Shown one piece after another: positions 15,401-26,285 of a stretch of 33,496 bases of DNA. Origin of the DNA: Ignavibacteriota bacterium (GTDB lineage: Bacteria; Bacteroidota; Ignavibacteria; UBA10030; SZUA-254). Numbering within the stretch: the stretch's first letter is position 1; each line of letters begins with the position of its first letter. The notes under the pieces were generated by a model. It was not told the origin of the DNA and did no database searches. It was given only the letters and a program-made list of their open reading frames with translations. Made by a program: the position numbers and the translations under genes. Location of the stretch: positions 1 through 33,496 of the forward strand of contig JACREZ010000031.1 in NCBI GenBank assembly GCA_016212665.1. Reading direction: 5' to 3'.

Positions 15401-18400
15401 ATGATGAAGAAAGCAATACTCTACTATCTTTTCACAGCGACTTCCGTTTTTCTGTTCGCCGGAATTCTGTTCTCTGCGGAAGGGCAAAAATCTCAGAAGA
15501 ATAAAAGTGAACGTGAAGTAACCGAAGTTACCGGGGTTCCGAGAACCACCGTGATGAACATTAATAATTTGTTAATGTGGGCAGGTGATGACGGGAGAAT
15601 GGAACGCCGACCAATGGATGATAATTCCGGTGTAACATTTCCCCGTGGAACTGCGGCGTGTGTGTATGCTGGCGGATTGGTCTGGGCAGGGTATGTCAAA
15701 GATGGCAGTTCGCCGGACCTCCGCGTTGGAGGACAGACATATAATTACGGAACCGTTCCCGGCAGAATTACGAGCAAAGGAGTAGCAGAAAGTCCGAGCG
15801 CTCCGAGTGTGCGCATGTATCGTATTCGCCGCGATTGGAAAACAGCCGACCTTGCACGCGATGCCGCGGAGATAAACGATGTTGCTCTTGCGACGGTTTC
15901 TCAAGGTCAGATTGATGCCGTTCGTGCGCAATACAAGAAAGATTGGATTGAGTGGCCCTGGCAAAAAGGCGCTCCGTATTACGACAGAAACAATAACGGA
16001 ATTTATGACCCCGACCCGACCGGCAATTACGACCCGGCATTAGATGAGCCGGGGCTTGGTGGCGCTGACCAGGTACTTTGGTATGTTGCCAATGACCTCA
16101 AAGCAACGGCAACAAGCGGGTTGTATGGTTCTCCTCCAATCGGAATCGAAATGCAGGTAACATGTTGGGCGTATGCACGAACTGATGAACTTGGAAACGT
16201 TATCTTCCAACGTTATCGAATTATCTATAAAGGAACATCAACAACTCCGCCTGATGCGAGGATTGACTCAATGTATATTGCAAAATGGGTTGACCCGGAT
16301 TTGGGAAATTATGGCGACGACTACGCCGGATGTGTGAAAGATAAGAGTTTAGGATTTGTCTATAACTCACAGCCGGAAGATGCAGAGTACAAAAAGTACA
16401 ATCTCAATCCTCCTTTTGTCGGATATGATTTCTTTCAAGGACCGCGTGTGAAGAAAGATGGCGCAACGGCGAGATGGGACTTACAAACCATCACCGGTTA
16501 TGAAAACAAAGAAATGACCACGTTTGCTTACTTTGCCGCCGGAGGTTTTGATAGTGACCCGACATTAGCACAGTATTCAGGCACACTTCAGTGGTGGAAC
16601 CTGATACGGGGATACCGTCCGCGACCAATAACACCGGCAGAGCCATTCATTGACCCTGCGACGGGAATTGCTACAAAATTTGAACTCGACGGAGACCCGA
16701 CAACATTGCGAGGGTGGATTGACGGAAGAAGAGATTCTCCCAGTGACCGAAGAATAGTTCTTTCTTCCGGTCCGATAACAATGGCGCTGGGTGATACTCA
16801 GGAAGTTGTGGTCGGTTTAATGGGCGCCATAGCAGGCCGGGATAAAGATTATATGGAAGGATATAATCTTCTCAAGAAGATTGATGACGAAGCACAAAAT
16901 GCATTCAACTTTAATTTTGATTTGCCCAAGAACGTCCCGGCGCCAAATCTCAATATTGTAGAATTAGAGAACAAAATTATTCTCGAATGGGAATCTGACA
17001 CAGCAAAAATCAGGGAGTGTGAATCATATAATTCGAAAGGATATCGTTTCGAAGGTTATACACTGTGGCAATTTCCCAACTCAAGAGCGACGACAGATAT
17101 TGCGCGACAACTTGCGCCGTTTGATATTACCGGTCCTCGTTCGCGCGTTATAGAAATTGATAAATTCAAAAATCGTCCGTTAGTAAACGGGCAACCCTAT
17201 TATTTTGGAATTCAAACCATTGTCTTTAATCCTGACCCATCGGTCAAGAGCCGTTTGGAATCAGCGCCGATTGTTAAAACAGCGATACCTCACAGTCCGA
17301 ATCCGGGAACAGTCTATCCTTATGAATTAAGCGAACCACAATCTATCGCGGCAAATGTTGTTGGAAAAAATGATGCAACGGTATTGGTTAGTTACAACGA
17401 CCCGACGAAAGCGGACGGACATACTTACAAAGTCTTGTTTCATTCTGCTGAAAACGAAACATGGGATTTTGTTGACCAGACAGAACATGATACGCTGATA
17501 AAAGGTGTTTCATTTTCATCAGGTACTTCTTCGTACAGGTCGGTCACGAGAGGGTTTACAGTTACTGTCAATATTCCGAAAGTGGGAATTAAGGGGGTAT
17601 ATCTTGTCAAATCAGATAATCAAACAATGAGAGAACCTGTATTTGTTACTCCGGATCCTAAGAATGAGTTCTTTGTTATCAGTCATATTGTTAATGACAG
17701 GGGTACTTCTACATTAGATACGATGGCTGGTGGAAATCGAAGTGACAGAGATATAGAATGGCGATTCGGCGATTCGAGTTGGGCGATTATGTCGATAGGC
17801 GCATCTTCTTTCTGGCTGAGAGTGCCATATCAAATGTGGCAACTGGGGAATGGTTCGACTATTCCAGACCGTCAGTTGTACACGGTAATAATCCCGCCTG
17901 AAAAAGATTCAATATGGCGAGCAACAAAGTTGCTCTCACGTTCCTACAACAATAAAGCGTTGAAAACTTTTTATCCTGTAGCAGTCTATGCAGATAGCTA
18001 CAAAGTCGGTTCTACTTTTTATGGCGGTAGGTATTACGATGATATTCTCAGTAAACCATTTGCTAACCTGATTAAAGGTGTTATTCTTACAAATATTTCT
18101 ATACCTAAAGATCCGGTTTGGGCTATAGCGAGAGCGTACTTGGCTGATTTAGACGATGATGGAAAACTGCCGCCAGCAGGAACGTTTATTCGTTTCGAGA
18201 AATATAAAGCCATTGTGGATGGTGATGAAAAAGAATTCACCACAACACCAACCGTTTATGATAATGCCGAAGCCGCTAAAACAGAAATAGCAAAGATAAA
18301 TGTCTTCCCGAATCCATACTACGGAGTGAATACACAGATGGGGTCACGTCAGGCGCCGTTTGTCAAATTCAATCATTTACCGGCGAATGCGAAAATCAGA

Positions 18401-18628
18401 ATCTTCAATTTGGCAGGACATCTCGTCCGAACGTTAGAGAAAAATTATGAAGCATCTGCCCCAAGTCAATTCCTCACATGGGATTTACAAAATGAAAACC
18501 AGTTACCTGTTGCAAGCGGAATCTATCTCGCATATCTTGAATTGAAAGATGCGAACGGAGTTGATTTGGGAACGAAGACACTAAAAATCATGATAATCCA
18601 GGAACAACAATATCTGGATAATTTTTAA
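15401..18628 (+). CDS. Large secreted protein with atypical T9SS-like C-terminal domain (cassette copy 1)
   Basis: This 1075-residue protein begins at ATG 15401 behind AAAGGA and has a signal peptide ending near LFSAEG. The N-terminal part (about 50-500) is an unrecognised domain with motifs NINNLLMW, SGVTFPRG, PGRIT, WPWQKGAPYY, DSMYIAKW and LQWWNLIRG, and a calcium-type loop DRNNNGIYDPD (near 198). A fibronectin-III-like stretch follows (about 515-660), then a beta-rich part with DLDDDG near 915. The C-terminal 110 residues look like a T9SS sorting domain (INVFPNPYYG, KIRIFNLAGHLVRTL, LPVASGIYLAYLELKD) but use PNPYYG instead of NYPNPFNP and run past the usual last strand with QEQQYLDNF. It is paralogous along its full length to the protein at 23061. 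The PorV-like gene follows within 32 bp, suggesting a secretion partner. The function is unknown. Confidence 0.8.
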   Translation: MMKKAILYYLFTATSVFLFAGILFSAEGQKSQKNKSEREVTEVTGVPRTTVMNINNLLMWAGDDGRMERRPMDDNSGVTFPRGTAACVYAGGLVWAGYVKDGSSPDLRVGGQTYNYGTVPGRITSKGVAESPSAPSVRMYRIRRDWKTADLARDAAEINDVALATVSQGQIDAVRAQYKKDWIEWPWQKGAPYYDRNNNGIYDPDPTGNYDPALDEPGLGGADQVLWYVANDLKATATSGLYGSPPIGIEMQVTCWAYARTDELGNVIFQRYRIIYKGTSTTPPDARIDSMYIAKWVDPDLGNYGDDYAGCVKDKSLGFVYNSQPEDAEYKKYNLNPPFVGYDFFQGPRVKKDGATARWDLQTITGYENKEMTTFAYFAAGGFDSDPTLAQYSGTLQWWNLIRGYRPRPITPAEPFIDPATGIATKFELDGDPTTLRGWIDGRRDSPSDRRIVLSSGPITMALGDTQEVVVGLMGAIAGRDKDYMEGYNLLKKIDDEAQNAFNFNFDLPKNVPAPNLNIVELENKIILEWESDTAKIRECESYNSKGYRFEGYTLWQFPNSRATTDIARQLAPFDITGPRSRVIEIDKFKNRPLVNGQPYYFGIQTIVFNPDPSVKSRLESAPIVKTAIPHSPNPGTVYPYELSEPQSIAANVVGKNDATVLVSYNDPTKADGHTYKVLFHSAENETWDFVDQTEHDTLIKGVSFSSGTSSYRSVTRGFTVTVNIPKVGIKGVYLVKSDNQTMREPVFVTPDPKNEFFVISHIVNDRGTSTLDTMAGGNRSDRDIEWRFGDSSWAIMSIGASSFWLRVPYQMWQLGNGSTIPDRQLYTVIIPPEKDSIWRATKLLSRSYNNKALKTFYPVAVYADSYKVGSTFYGGRYYDDILSKPFANLIKGVILTNISIPKDPVWAIARAYLADLDDDGKLPPAGTFIRFEKYKAIVDGDEKEFTTTPTVYDNAEAAKTEIAKINVFPNPYYGVNTQMGSRQAPFVKFNHLPANAKIRIFNLAGHLVRTLEKNYEASAPSQFLTWDLQNENQLPVASGIYLAYLELKDANGVDLGTKTLKIMIIQEQQYLDNF

Positions 18629-18660
18629 TTGGTATCATGAACAAGCGTAAGGAACACACA

Positions 18661-19695
18661 ATGAATACACGTACGACGACTTTGTTACTTCTATTTTGCA
18701 TTGCTCTGCTACTTTCGGGTGAACGGAGTTTTGCAGGCAGAGCAGATAAATCCGGAACCGCCGCCGCACCGCAATTATTAATTCCTGTCGGTCCACGAAT
18801 GATTGCTTTGGGTGGAACATCAATTGCGACGGTCAACGGTATTGAAGCGCTCTTTTGGAATCCTGCCGGTGTCGCAAAATCAAACCATGAATCGAATGCA
18901 ACATTTTCACATGTTAACTACCTTGCCGATATCGGCGTTGAGTATGTGGCCATCAGCAGTCAATTTGAAGGGCTCGGGACATTAGGGCTCAGTGTCAAAT
19001 CACTTTCATTCGGAGATATCGCAATCACCACGGAAGACCAGCCCGATGGTACAGGCGCAATAACTTCACCGACCTTTTTTACTTTGGGTGTGACGTATGC
19101 GAAGCAACTTGCAGACAGGGTGTCAGTTGGTTTAACGTTGAGTCACATTACGGAAAAAATTGAACGTGCAAGCGCCGCGGGTATTGCTTTCAATGTCGGG
19201 GTTCAATACTCTGGAGTAGGCGGAGTTCCCGGATTGAATCTCGGAGTTGTAGTGAAAAACATCGGACCTCAGATGCAATACGAAGGAACAGGATTGCTTC
19301 GTGAAGGTTCATTAGAAGATTTAAGTTATGGTTCGTTGGTACAACTTCGAGCCGCATCTGCCGAACTTCCGTCAGTTATGGAAATCGGTTTTGGTTATAT
19401 AAAATCATTTGATGAAGTAAACGCATTAAATATTTCCGGTTTATTTCAGAATAATAATTTCTCTGATGATGAATATAAATTCGGTCTGGAATATTCATAC
19501 TCAGATTTACTCTTCTTGCGGGGAGGGTATGTCCAGACAGCAAAGACAACCGAACTGGAAAGTATCTTTGGCGGTACATACGGTATCGGTTTCCATCAAA
19601 ATCTAGGCGACGTTGATTTATCTATTGATTATGCATTTCGAACAGCAGAATATTTTGGCGGGAACCATGTTTTTGGAATTATTTTAGGCTTTTAA
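18661..19695 (+). CDS. PorV/PorQ-family outer-membrane barrel (cassette copy 1)
   Basis: The frame is open from ATG 18637, but ATG 18661 is preferred because AAGGA lies 8 bases upstream and the signal peptide then starts cleanly (MNTRTTTLLLLFCIALLL, cleavage near SFAG). The 344-residue product carries the family signature AAPQLLIPVGPRMIALGGTS followed by ALFWNPAGVA, then amphipathic beta-strands and a C-terminal aromatic-ended strand (HVFGIILGF). In T9SS, PorV is the outer-membrane shuttle that takes substrates from the SprA translocon to the attachment complex, and PorQ is a related accessory protein. This copy lies between two secreted proteins rather than with core T9SS genes, so it is more likely a substrate-dedicated paralogue. 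It is paralogous to the protein at 26287. Confidence 0.85.
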   Translation: MNTRTTTLLLLFCIALLLSGERSFAGRADKSGTAAAPQLLIPVGPRMIALGGTSIATVNGIEALFWNPAGVAKSNHESNATFSHVNYLADIGVEYVAISSQFEGLGTLGLSVKSLSFGDIAITTEDQPDGTGAITSPTFFTLGVTYAKQLADRVSVGLTLSHITEKIERASAAGIAFNVGVQYSGVGGVPGLNLGVVVKNIGPQMQYEGTGLLREGSLEDLSYGSLVQLRAASAELPSVMEIGFGYIKSFDEVNALNISGLFQNNNFSDDEYKFGLEYSYSDLLFLRGGYVQTAKTTELESIFGGTYGIGFHQNLGDVDLSIDYAFRTAEYFGGNHVFGIILGF

Positions 19696-23060: not shown

Positions 23061-26000
23061 GTGCGATTTCATATTTTTCATTTGAGCATTATCTCCCCGA
23101 AGAATGTGTTCAAACATATCGTTGTTTCTTTGTTATTGATTTTCTCTTTGGCTGTTTCAGTATCAGCGCAAACTTATATAAAAGGAGAAAGTCAATTTCC
23201 CGTTTTGCAAGATACTGCAACAAGCGCTCTCCTGAACATCAACAATGTTTCTATGTGGGTGAATGATAATGGATTATTAGAAAAAAATTCAGTACGACAA
23301 TCAGCCGGTGTAACATTTCCGCGAGGAACATCAACATTAGTGTATGATGGAGGACTGTTGTGGGGTGGTATTGTCCGTGACGGAATCACACCGGAAATCC
23401 GGGTGGGGGGACAGGCGCGCGTTGCAGGAACCATTCCCGGAAGAATTACTTCTTCTCATCTACCGGAGAATAGATTTGCAAATGCCGTTCGGGTTTTCCG
23501 AATTCGTCCCGATTGGAAAACAGGAGATTTGAGACAAGATGCGGCAGAAACATTCGGTATTTCCATTTATGATGTGACTGAAAACGAATTACAGGAATTA
23601 CGACGGCGATATGCGGTAGATTGGTATAGCTGGCCCTGGCAAAAAGGTGCGCCATACTACGAACGAAACGGGATGCCCGGCTATCAGCCGGATACAGGTA
23701 GCTTTGCCGATTCGACTGACGATGAACCGGGGTTGTTAAACGCAGACCAGGTGATTTGGCTTGTGTGTAACGATTTAAACCAAACGACGACGAGAAATTT
23801 AGCAGGTTCATCGCCTATAGGGATTGAACATCAAATTACATGTTGGGCATATAAAGCAGAAGGGGAACTTGGGAATGTAATTTTTCAACAGCATAAAATT
23901 ATTTACAAAGGGATGCCAACGACACCGCCCTCTTCAAGAATTGATTCAATGTATATTGCAAAGTGGGCAGACACAGATGTCGGAGAAGTGAAGGACGATT
24001 ATTCCGGTTGTTTGATTAACAATAATCTTGGCTTTACTTACAACTCTTCCGAACTTGATTATGAGTATAACAAGTACGGATTAAAACCTCCCGTTATCGG
24101 TTATGATTTATTGCAGGGACCGAGAGTTCCAAAGCCCGGAGGTTCGGCACACTGGAATTTTTCAATCATCCCCGGGTATGAAAATCTCTCTATGACTTCG
24201 TTCGCCGCATTAGTTGACAGTGTTCATAGAGACCAACCATCACAAAATAATTATAACGGCACACTTCAATGGTGGAATTTGATGCGAGGATTTCAATCGC
24301 GTTTAGCCAATCCACCGGAATGTTTCAGAGACCCTTTTACTAATAGATGTACGACGTATCCTTACTCCGGAGACCCGAGGACATTTCAAGGTTGGGTTGA
24401 TGGTAGAACAAATCCTCCGGGGGATAGACGAATACTGCTTTCTTCGGGACCGTTTCAAATGGAGTTAGGTGATACTCAATCGGTTGTTGTTGCGTTGATA
24501 GCCGCACAAGGCGACGATAGGGTTGAAGCGCTCAATAATCTTGAATCAACGGATAATACAGTTCAGGATTTATTTAATAGAGATTTTATCTTTGAGCAGT
24601 CAGTTCCGATTCCAACACTCAGAATCGTCGAGTTGAATAATAAATTTATTCTTGATTGGGAGTCTGACACAACTCAAATGGGGAAAATTGAACGTTACAA
24701 TTCATATGGCTATCAATTTGAAGGATATAAAATTTACCAGTTCAAAAGTCCCACACTCGATAGTGATTATAAATTATTTCCTGCTTTTGACCCATCTTCT
24801 CCTCGTTATCTTCACTTAACGAACGATATCATCAGGAATAAGCCGTTAGTGAATGGGCAGAAATATTATTACGCTGTTACTGCGGTAATGCTTAATCCTA
24901 ACCCTCTGGCTGGAAGTCCTCGTATTGAATCGCCCATCAAAATTCTGACAGCTGTTCCTCATTCGCCCAATCCCGGTGTGGTGTATCCATATGATATTGG
25001 AGATACGGTTACATCGGTGGTGAACAAAAAGGGATACAATGATGCACCGGTAACTGTTACGTACTTCGACCCATCCAAAGCAAAAGGTGATAGTTTGAAA
25101 ATACTATTTCACTATCCGGATTTTTATTTTCTCCCAACATGGGACTTAGTCAATATGCGTACAGGGGATATGTTGGTTCAACAGAAGGGAATTAATAATT
25201 CTCCGTATCGGGTAATAAGTGAAGGTTTGGCGATACAGGTGCGCATGCCGCTTTTTGGTGTAAAAGGAGTTTACCAAACATTCTCGAATGGAATATCAAC
25301 GAATGATTTTGTATTCAATCAACCGAATCCTCAAGGGAATTATATGGTCGTTGCAGGAGGTGCATCGCAGTTAGATTCTATTAACGGGGGAACAGCAAGC
25401 GACAGAGATATCGAATTTCGATTTTTAGGTGATTCAAGTTGGGCATTGTTGAGACGTGCTTCTGCGGGTGTCTCAAGGTGGGTTCGGGTTCCTTACACGG
25501 TATGGCAAATGGAACGTGATCCTGCTAACCCGATAGGAAGACAAGTTTATTCAGTAATCACTCAACAAGGGAATGATAGTATGTGGAGAGCAACTACGTT
25601 ATTGGACAGGATGTATAATGGAAAACCATTGCAAACATTTTATCCGATAACAGTAATTGTTGATAGCCTTCAAACCGGTTTTCCTCCAAAATATTATGGC
25701 GGAACATACATTGATGATTTGAGTCATCCCACAATTCCGATTGTTCAGGCATACCTTTGGGTAAATTCTTACACGAAGCAGAAACCAACAGGTTTATATA
25801 GATTATATTTTGCTGATGTTGATGAAGACGGGATAGCAGTTCCGGCAAATACTGTAATTCGTTTTAAACGTTACAAAGATATTTTTGATGGAGATGAAAA
25901 GTTAGTTCTTCCCTCAGGAATTCAATATGATGATAATGCTGCATTGCAAAATGAAATTTCAAAAATAAATGTATTCCCGAATCCATATTATGCAGTAAAC

Positions 26001-26285
26001 AGAGCGGAAACAGGTAAATATGAAAGATTTGTTACGTTTAATCATTTACCCTATCACGCTACGATAAGATTGTTCAATTTAGGCGGAGTGTTAGTGAGAA
26101 CTATTACGAAGAACGATGAGACACAGTTTTTCACTTGGGACCTCAATAACGAAAATTCTTTACCTGTAGCAAGCGGTTTATATGTTGCACATCTTGAATT
26201 GAAAGATCGAAATATGATTGATCTGGGGACGAAGACGTTGAAACTTATGATAGTACAAGAACAACGATTTAAACAGGGAAGGTAG
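23061..26285 (+). CDS. Large secreted protein with atypical T9SS-like C-terminal domain (cassette copy 2)
   Basis: The 1074-residue product is a diverged full-length paralogue of the protein at 15401: NINNVSMW, AGVTFPRGT, PGRIT, WPWQKGAPYY, DSMYIAKW and LQWWNLMRG recur in the same order. The GTG at 23061 is uncertain, since no Shine-Dalgarno is visible; TTG 23082 and GTG 23106 are alternatives, and all lie before the hydrophobic signal segment ending SVSAQ. The calcium-type loop of copy 1 (DRNNNGIYDPD) is replaced by ERNGMPGYQPD, while DVDEDG near 918 is kept. The C-terminal domain (about 967-1074: INVFPNPYYAVN, TIRLFNLGGVLVRTI, LPVASGLYVAHLELKD) again uses PNPYY and ends in a short tail, QEQRFKQGR. 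The PorV-like gene starts one base after its stop, so the two are almost certainly translated together. The function is unknown. Confidence 0.8.
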   Translation: MRFHIFHLSIISPKNVFKHIVVSLLLIFSLAVSVSAQTYIKGESQFPVLQDTATSALLNINNVSMWVNDNGLLEKNSVRQSAGVTFPRGTSTLVYDGGLLWGGIVRDGITPEIRVGGQARVAGTIPGRITSSHLPENRFANAVRVFRIRPDWKTGDLRQDAAETFGISIYDVTENELQELRRRYAVDWYSWPWQKGAPYYERNGMPGYQPDTGSFADSTDDEPGLLNADQVIWLVCNDLNQTTTRNLAGSSPIGIEHQITCWAYKAEGELGNVIFQQHKIIYKGMPTTPPSSRIDSMYIAKWADTDVGEVKDDYSGCLINNNLGFTYNSSELDYEYNKYGLKPPVIGYDLLQGPRVPKPGGSAHWNFSIIPGYENLSMTSFAALVDSVHRDQPSQNNYNGTLQWWNLMRGFQSRLANPPECFRDPFTNRCTTYPYSGDPRTFQGWVDGRTNPPGDRRILLSSGPFQMELGDTQSVVVALIAAQGDDRVEALNNLESTDNTVQDLFNRDFIFEQSVPIPTLRIVELNNKFILDWESDTTQMGKIERYNSYGYQFEGYKIYQFKSPTLDSDYKLFPAFDPSSPRYLHLTNDIIRNKPLVNGQKYYYAVTAVMLNPNPLAGSPRIESPIKILTAVPHSPNPGVVYPYDIGDTVTSVVNKKGYNDAPVTVTYFDPSKAKGDSLKILFHYPDFYFLPTWDLVNMRTGDMLVQQKGINNSPYRVISEGLAIQVRMPLFGVKGVYQTFSNGISTNDFVFNQPNPQGNYMVVAGGASQLDSINGGTASDRDIEFRFLGDSSWALLRRASAGVSRWVRVPYTVWQMERDPANPIGRQVYSVITQQGNDSMWRATTLLDRMYNGKPLQTFYPITVIVDSLQTGFPPKYYGGTYIDDLSHPTIPIVQAYLWVNSYTKQKPTGLYRLYFADVDEDGIAVPANTVIRFKRYKDIFDGDEKLVLPSGIQYDDNAALQNEISKINVFPNPYYAVNRAETGKYERFVTFNHLPYHATIRLFNLGGVLVRTITKNDETQFFTWDLNNENSLPVASGLYVAHLELKDRNMIDLGTKTLKLMIVQEQRFKQGR

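Follow-up and report, generated by a model that had tools for sequence, protein, structure and literature searches.

This analysis concerns a 33,496-nucleotide window, the whole of contig JACREZ010000031.1 (C31) in the 3.9 Mb, 99.65% complete genome of an Ignavibacteriota bacterium (GCA_016212665.1). The window carries two copies of a cassette in which the gene for a large putative substrate of the type IX secretion system (T9SS), P0006 or P0009, is followed directly by the gene for a barrel of the PorV/PorQ family, P0007 or P0010. Both substrates end in a C-terminal domain (CTD) of one sequence class, and across 11 related genomes this CTD class and one clade of barrels occur together in an almost one-to-one relation. 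The conserved pairing suggests a third type of tag-and-carrier pair in the T9SS. P0006/P0007 and P0009/P0010 are proposed, by analogy, to be cognate substrate-barrel pairs that represent a general form of the PorU-PorV and PorZ-PorQ arrangement, an interpretation that is partly supported, as far as genomes allow, with its mechanism unproven.

The coupling was counted over every match in the 11 related genomes: at E <= 1e-12 there are 70 class CTDs, and at E <= 1e-15 there are 134 PorV-family barrels. For 50 of the 70 CTDs a co-directional barrel gene lies less than 600 bp downstream, and for another 12 it lies at a distance of 2.2-7.1 kb and is again co-directional, giving 62 CTDs with a barrel adjoining or in the operon and 61 different barrels used. 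At a density of about 12 barrels in a 3.2 Mb genome, only about 0.1% of CTDs would by chance have a co-directional barrel within 600 bp. The remaining eight CTDs are six orphans, L215 at a contig start and L197, which sits just downstream of the clade barrel L275 with a 144-aa open reading frame (ORF) between them; that barrel (L275_1198) is accordingly recorded as lying just upstream of a class substrate and not as solo. The barrels of L166, L283 and L292, whose ORFs are masked by a longer ORF on the opposite strand, were recognized on inspection. Among the 54 adjacent pairs inspected gene by gene, the median gap is 12 bp when the longest ORFs are used.

Within the window's own genome, four of eight class CTDs have an adjacent barrel, one has a barrel in the same operon and three are orphans. 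A control on the same genome used 150 scored proteins out of 191 candidates with the common type A CTD. A barrel within 600 bp downstream is found for a single one of these, which is PorU, and a barrel within 10 kb for three more, two of which precede the window's two pairs. Outside the window's own taxonomic class, 20 loci were inspected, each the best match of one of 20 of the 55 matching genomes and thus a favorable choice; the barrel is directly downstream in 17, later in the operon in two and directly upstream in one. Among four loci from named-genome records, the pair is kept in L065 and L066 (the L066 barrel contains an N and a broken frame), L067 has a type A CTD instead, and the L068 locus runs off its contig. 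These counts bear out the original prediction that class members generally come with a PorV-like gene (next to the substrate gene or in its operon for 62 of 70 in the relatives and in 20 of 20 chosen loci elsewhere). Frequent absence of the barrel gene, which would have refuted that prediction, is not seen, since orphans make up 6 of 70. For the window itself, the predicted substrate and adjoining barrel ORFs were found in place in both copies. The predicted gap of 1 bp is correct for P0009-P0010, and the predicted 32 bp for P0006-P0007 holds from the second ATG of the barrel (18661, behind AAGGA) but shrinks to 8 bp from the first (18637).

The barrels that accompany class CTDs also group together by descent. 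In a tree of 132 barrels, all 66 CTD-linked barrels fall in one clade of 68 with a local support of 98, and the other two rows of this clade are L275, upstream of L197, and L259, which begins right at the edge of a contig. Outside the clade are 12 canonical PorV proteins, 23 PorZ-like tandem barrels and 29 other barrels. Excluded from the tree were barrels below 100 bits of a local model, those shorter than 180 aa, identical copies and barrels dropped by an overlap filter. A second tree with a mixture model, from which 39 more divergent or near-duplicate rows were removed, retains 93 rows and places the linked barrels plus L275 on one side of a branch with an SH-aLRT value of 93. Pairwise CTD identity and barrel identity are correlated both overall (r 0.92, 2145 comparisons) and within genomes (r 0.79, rank 0.50, 144 comparisons), the second value being calculated without two L209 substrates that share one barrel. 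Within-genome permutations give a mean r of 0.03, and none of 1000 reaches the observed value, evidence that barrels have not been reshuffled from one substrate to another.

P0007 and P0010, which are 44% identical to each other, belong to the PorV/PorQ family according to model NF033709 (175.2 and 149.6 bits, cut-off 90), and P0007 matches the PorV structure 6h3i in the PDB with an E-value of 1.4e-9. Neither is a canonical PorV (NF033710, 83.6 and 65.5 bits against an equivalog cut-off of 250) or a PorQ (NF033711, 85.2 and 65.5 bits against an equivalog cut-off of 220). The genome encodes its canonical PorV elsewhere, behind PorU (254.8 bits, cut-off 250), along with PorU itself (937 bits, cut-off 420) and the SprA translocon (998 bits, cut-off 200). 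The PorP/SprF model TIGR03519 has no match in this genome, a result that leaves absence unproven because the controls are equally silent.

The substrate CTDs were scored against models of the known sorting domains. Both score narrowly below what the type A model TIGR04183 requires (cut-off 23 bits; P0006 21.2, P0009 20.8), and their export signal would therefore escape routine annotation. Neither matches the type B model TIGR04131 at E <= 1e-3, and the type B family CHU_C (PF13585) gives 14.2 bits for P0006 against a cut-off of 27 and nothing for P0009 at E <= 0.1. Higher scores than for type A are obtained with the C-terminal end of the PorZ model (P0006 33.1, P0009 28.0 bits), and the C-terminal end of the PorU model gives 22.7 bits for P0006. 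A profile built from a six-row alignment (A1) scores the eight class CTDs of the window genome at 136-159 bits, followed by the CTD of PorU at 36; six of these eight CTDs form the alignment, so own-genome scores are not blind and those of the relatives are. With a profile of 80 members, the members themselves score 81-136 bits, compared with 35-44 for 9 PorU CTDs, 15-38 for 14 PorZ-like CTDs (two of which, L237 and L249, are from type A proteins) and 11-34 for 34 type A CTDs. In profile-profile comparison, the class is closest to PorU (E 3e-15), followed by PorZ-like (3e-12) and type A (2e-11) CTDs. A search of the PDB with the six-row profile returns two matches only at E <= 10, namely 6za2 (PorU, 0.043) and 5m11 (PorZ, 0.14).

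The class consensus reads VVPNPY...R.I.F.HLP..TIRIFTLAG.LV...HD...W.L...ASG.Y...VE..G.K.GKF.II. In 35 of 80 members the NP motif that comes first in the CTD is NPYY, and in 74 it is NPY followed by any residue. The original prediction had named the class PNPYY-type; a distinct CTD class with its own barrels is indeed found, but with NPYY in fewer than half of its members the name is too narrow.

An AlphaFold2 model of P0006 residues 955-1075, generated from four sequences, has a pLDDT of 79 and seven strands, and the CTD is thus predicted to be a seven-stranded Ig-like beta sandwich with the type A fold. Foldseek ranks PorZ first for this model, FlgD second and third and PorU fourth. Alignment with VIA-align, in which rows less than 1 Z apart are tied, gives Z-scores of 9.8 for PorU (rmsd 3.9, 103 aligned), 9.5 for PorZ (4.2, 95) and 9.2 for the unrelated peptidase Vpr (8jmw; 3.5, 98), followed by the T9SS CTDs of mirolase (8.3; 1.8, 69), RemA (8gl6_D, 8.2; 2.2, 75), RemZ (7.7; 2.2, 71) and NucA (7.6; 2.4, 70). 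Models and profiles together indicate a T9SS CTD of type A fold that leans to the PorU side. The sorting domain that had been predicted to be atypical therefore forms a separate class but is not alien, as it appears to share the type A fold and to be closest to PorU and, less clearly, to PorZ.

Proteins that have changed their CTD indicate which part of the substrate the barrel accompanies. A protein on contig C26 of the window genome (L040:7676-11074) is 67% identical to P0006 residues 24-516, but its sorting domain is a type A CTD (42.6 bits). The 18 kb stretch around it contains no barrel. Likewise, L067 is 62% identical to P0006 residues 53-478, has a CTD that is type A by eye and has no barrel on its 6 kb contig. 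In both cases the passenger is kept and the barrel is absent together with the class CTD, so the barrel seems to follow the CTD class.

The six orphan CTDs of the relatives are L147, L148, L169, L181, L185 and L186. Two of them, L147 and L169, are fragments lying at the start of a contig; L169 shares 98% identity with L162 from its own genome and could be a duplicate or a remnant of the assembly. All six, and the three orphans of the window genome, have the CTD of the L031-type pair as the most similar barrel-linked CTD of their genome, with identities of 0.48-0.98. The three orphans of the window genome are tandem substrates on contig C16 (L041:5770-12568) with CTDs 81-95% identical to one another, and no barrel or receptor is present in the 19 kb stretch that holds them. 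Some orphan type B substrates of F. johnsoniae share one carrier barrel (PMC12618676).

The reading favored here, with a probability of roughly 0.65, is that the barrel serves as a dedicated PorV-like carrier and then as the surface anchor of a substrate whose CTD stays uncleaved. The substrate would first be exported by Sec, after which its PNPY-class CTD would be recognized at the lateral opening of SprA by the cognate barrel and not by the shared PorV. A 1:1 complex of substrate and barrel would then exit into the outer membrane, where the barrel would shield the CTD from the sortase PorU and so keep the substrate lastingly attached. In most cassettes the surface protein would end up beside the TonB-dependent receptor of the same operon. 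We infer, in this scheme, binding, the carrier role, secretion, retention without cleavage, protection of the CTD and the complex with the receptor. The original prediction of a dedicated PorV-like partner thus gains the genomic coupling of the CTD class with a separate barrel clade (62 of 70 CTDs, and 66 of 66 linked barrels in the clade), while the mechanism it envisaged is unproven.

Several observations weigh against this reading. The PorZ-like CTDs are barely closer to the class than type A CTDs in profile comparison, which leaves PorU alone distinct, and the likeness of the class profile to the PorU and PorZ structures in the PDB is weak. In the structural comparisons FlgD falls between PorZ and PorU in the Foldseek ranking, Vpr ties with the PorU and PorZ rows in VIA-align, and the longer chains of PorU and PorZ may raise their Z-scores. 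A structure model of full-length P0006 from four sequences reached a pLDDT of only 37 and was not used. The correlation between CTD and barrel drops to r 0.46 when barrels less than 40% identical are compared, and much of it reflects vertical inheritance of whole cassettes. Finally, the orphans (6 of 70 in the relatives, 3 of 8 in the window genome) have no nearby barrel and would have to rely on a barrel encoded elsewhere or on the shared PorV.

Three other explanations of the pairing were weighed. The barrel could be a carrier only, taking the substrate from SprA to PorU, where the CTD is cut and the barrel recycled without any anchoring. The type A-like fold and key positions predicted for the CTD and the presence of PorU agree with this, as does the view of PorV as a recycled or abundant shuttle given in PMC12618676; a near one-to-one pairing of genes, however, suits a lasting partnership better than a catalytic shuttle, and the window genome has just one canonical PorV for its 150 or more type A matches. 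A role as carrier alone is rather doubtful. It is improbable that the barrel is instead a FadL-like solute channel or receptor subunit tied to the TonB-dependent receptor, with the substrates leaving through the common PorV. A receptor gene is directly upstream of 40 of the 54 adjacent pairs and in 17 of the 20 loci from other taxonomic classes, as this explanation would have it, yet the upstream position is taken by a type A gene in nine pairs, including the second copy in the window, by an opposite-strand gene in three and by another gene in two. The barrel is thus a closer companion of the CTD than the receptor is. L040 and L067, whose passengers are joined to a type A CTD, also speak against a receptor subunit, since they lack the barrel, and none of 51 regions surrounding other barrels (reaching 3 kb upstream and 1.2 kb downstream, contig permitting) has a match to the receptor model.

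Least probable is a functionless operon linkage in which an old gene order is simply inherited as a block. Cassettes are inherited as units, but passengers of differing size take part in the pairing, which also recurs outside the window's taxonomic class and is kept in three gene orders: substrate and barrel adjacent; substrate, another gene, receptor and barrel; and receptor, barrel and substrate (L291). A more speculative extension of the dedicated-anchor reading, and an unlikely one at present, is that receptor, substrate and barrel form one standing surface complex in which the substrate acts as the lid or binding protein of the receptor, and in which orphan substrates of the class compete for one barrel and thereby exchange the binding protein. 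Such a complex would resemble SusD-SusC in the role of the lid, with the difference that SusD is held by a lipid and the substrate here would be held by an uncut CTD in a PorV-type barrel.

The proposed pairs can be placed beside the known T9SS systems. PorU:PorV and PorZ:PorQ are 1:1 subcomplexes (PMC5562754), PorU and PorZ retain their CTDs in P. gingivalis (PMC11285876), and these CTDs remain uncut on PorV and PorQ (PMC10202324, PMC5562754). The pairs considered here likewise combine a putative surface protein that has a type A-like CTD with a PorV/PorQ-family barrel, and retention of the CTD would be a further likeness; the class CTD is closest to that of PorU by profile, and PorU and PorZ top the structural list (with Vpr tied). 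Unlike these pieces of secretion machinery, the pairs occur several times per genome, carry other large passengers, lie mostly by TonB-dependent receptors and use a separate barrel clade. With the type B pairs SprB-SprF, PG1035-PorP and Fjoh_3952-Fjoh_3951 they share a dedicated barrel gene directly after the substrate gene, and type B substrates are anchored by their barrel (PMC9143113); the CTD, however, is type A-like and the barrel is of the PorV/PorQ and not the PorP/SprF family. Ordinary type A substrates have the same seven-strand CTD, common conserved positions and a barrel of the same family in the shared PorV, but the class CTDs differ in scoring under the TIGR04183 cut-off, in being separated by the class profile and in having a dedicated barrel. 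Searches of the open-licence literature listed no paper describing this CTD class together with dedicated barrels of the PorV family.

The class is present in 39 of 40 genomes made up of the window genome and its near relatives. Of 198 genomes sampled from the phylum, 103 have at least one class CTD match (E <= 1e-12), 48 of them in the window's own taxonomic class (the window genome included) and 55 outside it; some have a single weaker match only. Among the genomes listed, at least one of the window's own taxonomic class has no CTD match. Named matches come from records labeled Bacteroidetes, Deferribacteres and Ignavibacteriae. If the proposed reading is true, T9SS sorting gains at least one carrier branch beyond type A with PorV and type B with PorP/SprF, and this branch would be widespread in parts of the phylum. 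PorU-PorV and PorZ-PorQ would then be cases of a general rule instead of special machinery. The pairs would also make it possible to test directly the suggestion of PMC10202324 that cognate PorV-like barrels shield the CTD from cleavage.

The features of the two cassettes and their neighbors are collected in Table 1. P0005 is the first gene of a receptor-substrate-barrel trio that forms the first cassette, and the second copy has no receptor upstream and a type A gene in its place. By score P0005 is not of the SusC/RagA type (TIGR04056, 56.2 bits, cut-off 368). No Pfam family exceeds its cut-off in the ten substrates tested, which are P0006, P0009 and eight other class members. The P0006 CTD contains the motifs PNPYY, FNHLP, IRIF.LAG..V, ASGIY and GTKTLK and is followed by an 8-residue tail. 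P0008 and P0011, each behind a barrel, are 34% identical, and P0008 is a possible companion of the first cassette.

Table 1. Coordinates of the two cassettes and adjacent genes in the window
Feature	Position	Strand	Description
P0004	11023-12267		DUF4397 protein with lipoprotein-like start; precedes the receptor of the first cassette
P0005	12307-15384	+	TonB-dependent receptor, 1025 aa; CarboxypepD_reg_2, plug and barrel domains (PF13715, PF07715, PF00593) above cut-off
P0006	15401-18628	+	Substrate 1, 1075 aa; signal peptide by eye
P0006 C-terminal sorting domain	18269-18601	+	Class profile 158.9 bits (row included in profile)
P0007	18637-19695	+	PorV/PorQ-family barrel 1, paired clade; likely start 18661
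P0008	19751-22876	+	Type A (NYPNPF) protein behind barrel 1; TIGR04183 31.8 bits
P0009	23061-26285	+	Substrate 2, 1074 aa from GTG, true start may lie downstream; 49% identical to P0006
P0009 C-terminal sorting domain	25938-26258	+	Class profile 146.5 bits (row included in profile)
P0010	26287-27363	+	PorV/PorQ-family barrel 2, paired clade
P0011	27701-30847	+	Type A protein behind barrel 2; TIGR04183 38.4 bits

A tail like that of P0006 (18602-18625 in the window, and its homologues) recurs in the class, with 30 of 80 proteins having at least seven residues past the CTD; all of these are longer than 1000 aa except for one 259-aa fragment. In loci with the second gene order, the gene between substrate and receptor encodes an 874-aa YCF48-like repeat protein at L032:11503-14127 and in homologues, and a type A protein also occupies the position between substrate and receptor in four loci of the relatives (L160, L167, L172 and L182).

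A different arrangement is found on contig C2 of the window genome (L034:8608-12041) and in all 11 relatives (L230, L232, L236, L245, L246, L252, L256, L260, L266, L274 and L278). In these loci a protein of 510-561 aa with a PNPY/PNPF CTD is followed by two tandem PorV-family barrels, the ORF of the first barrel being masked by a longer ORF in L232. The protein of the window genome's own locus has a weak match to a glycosylhydrolase model, and the locus is perhaps the counterpart of PorZ-PorQ with two barrels instead of one.

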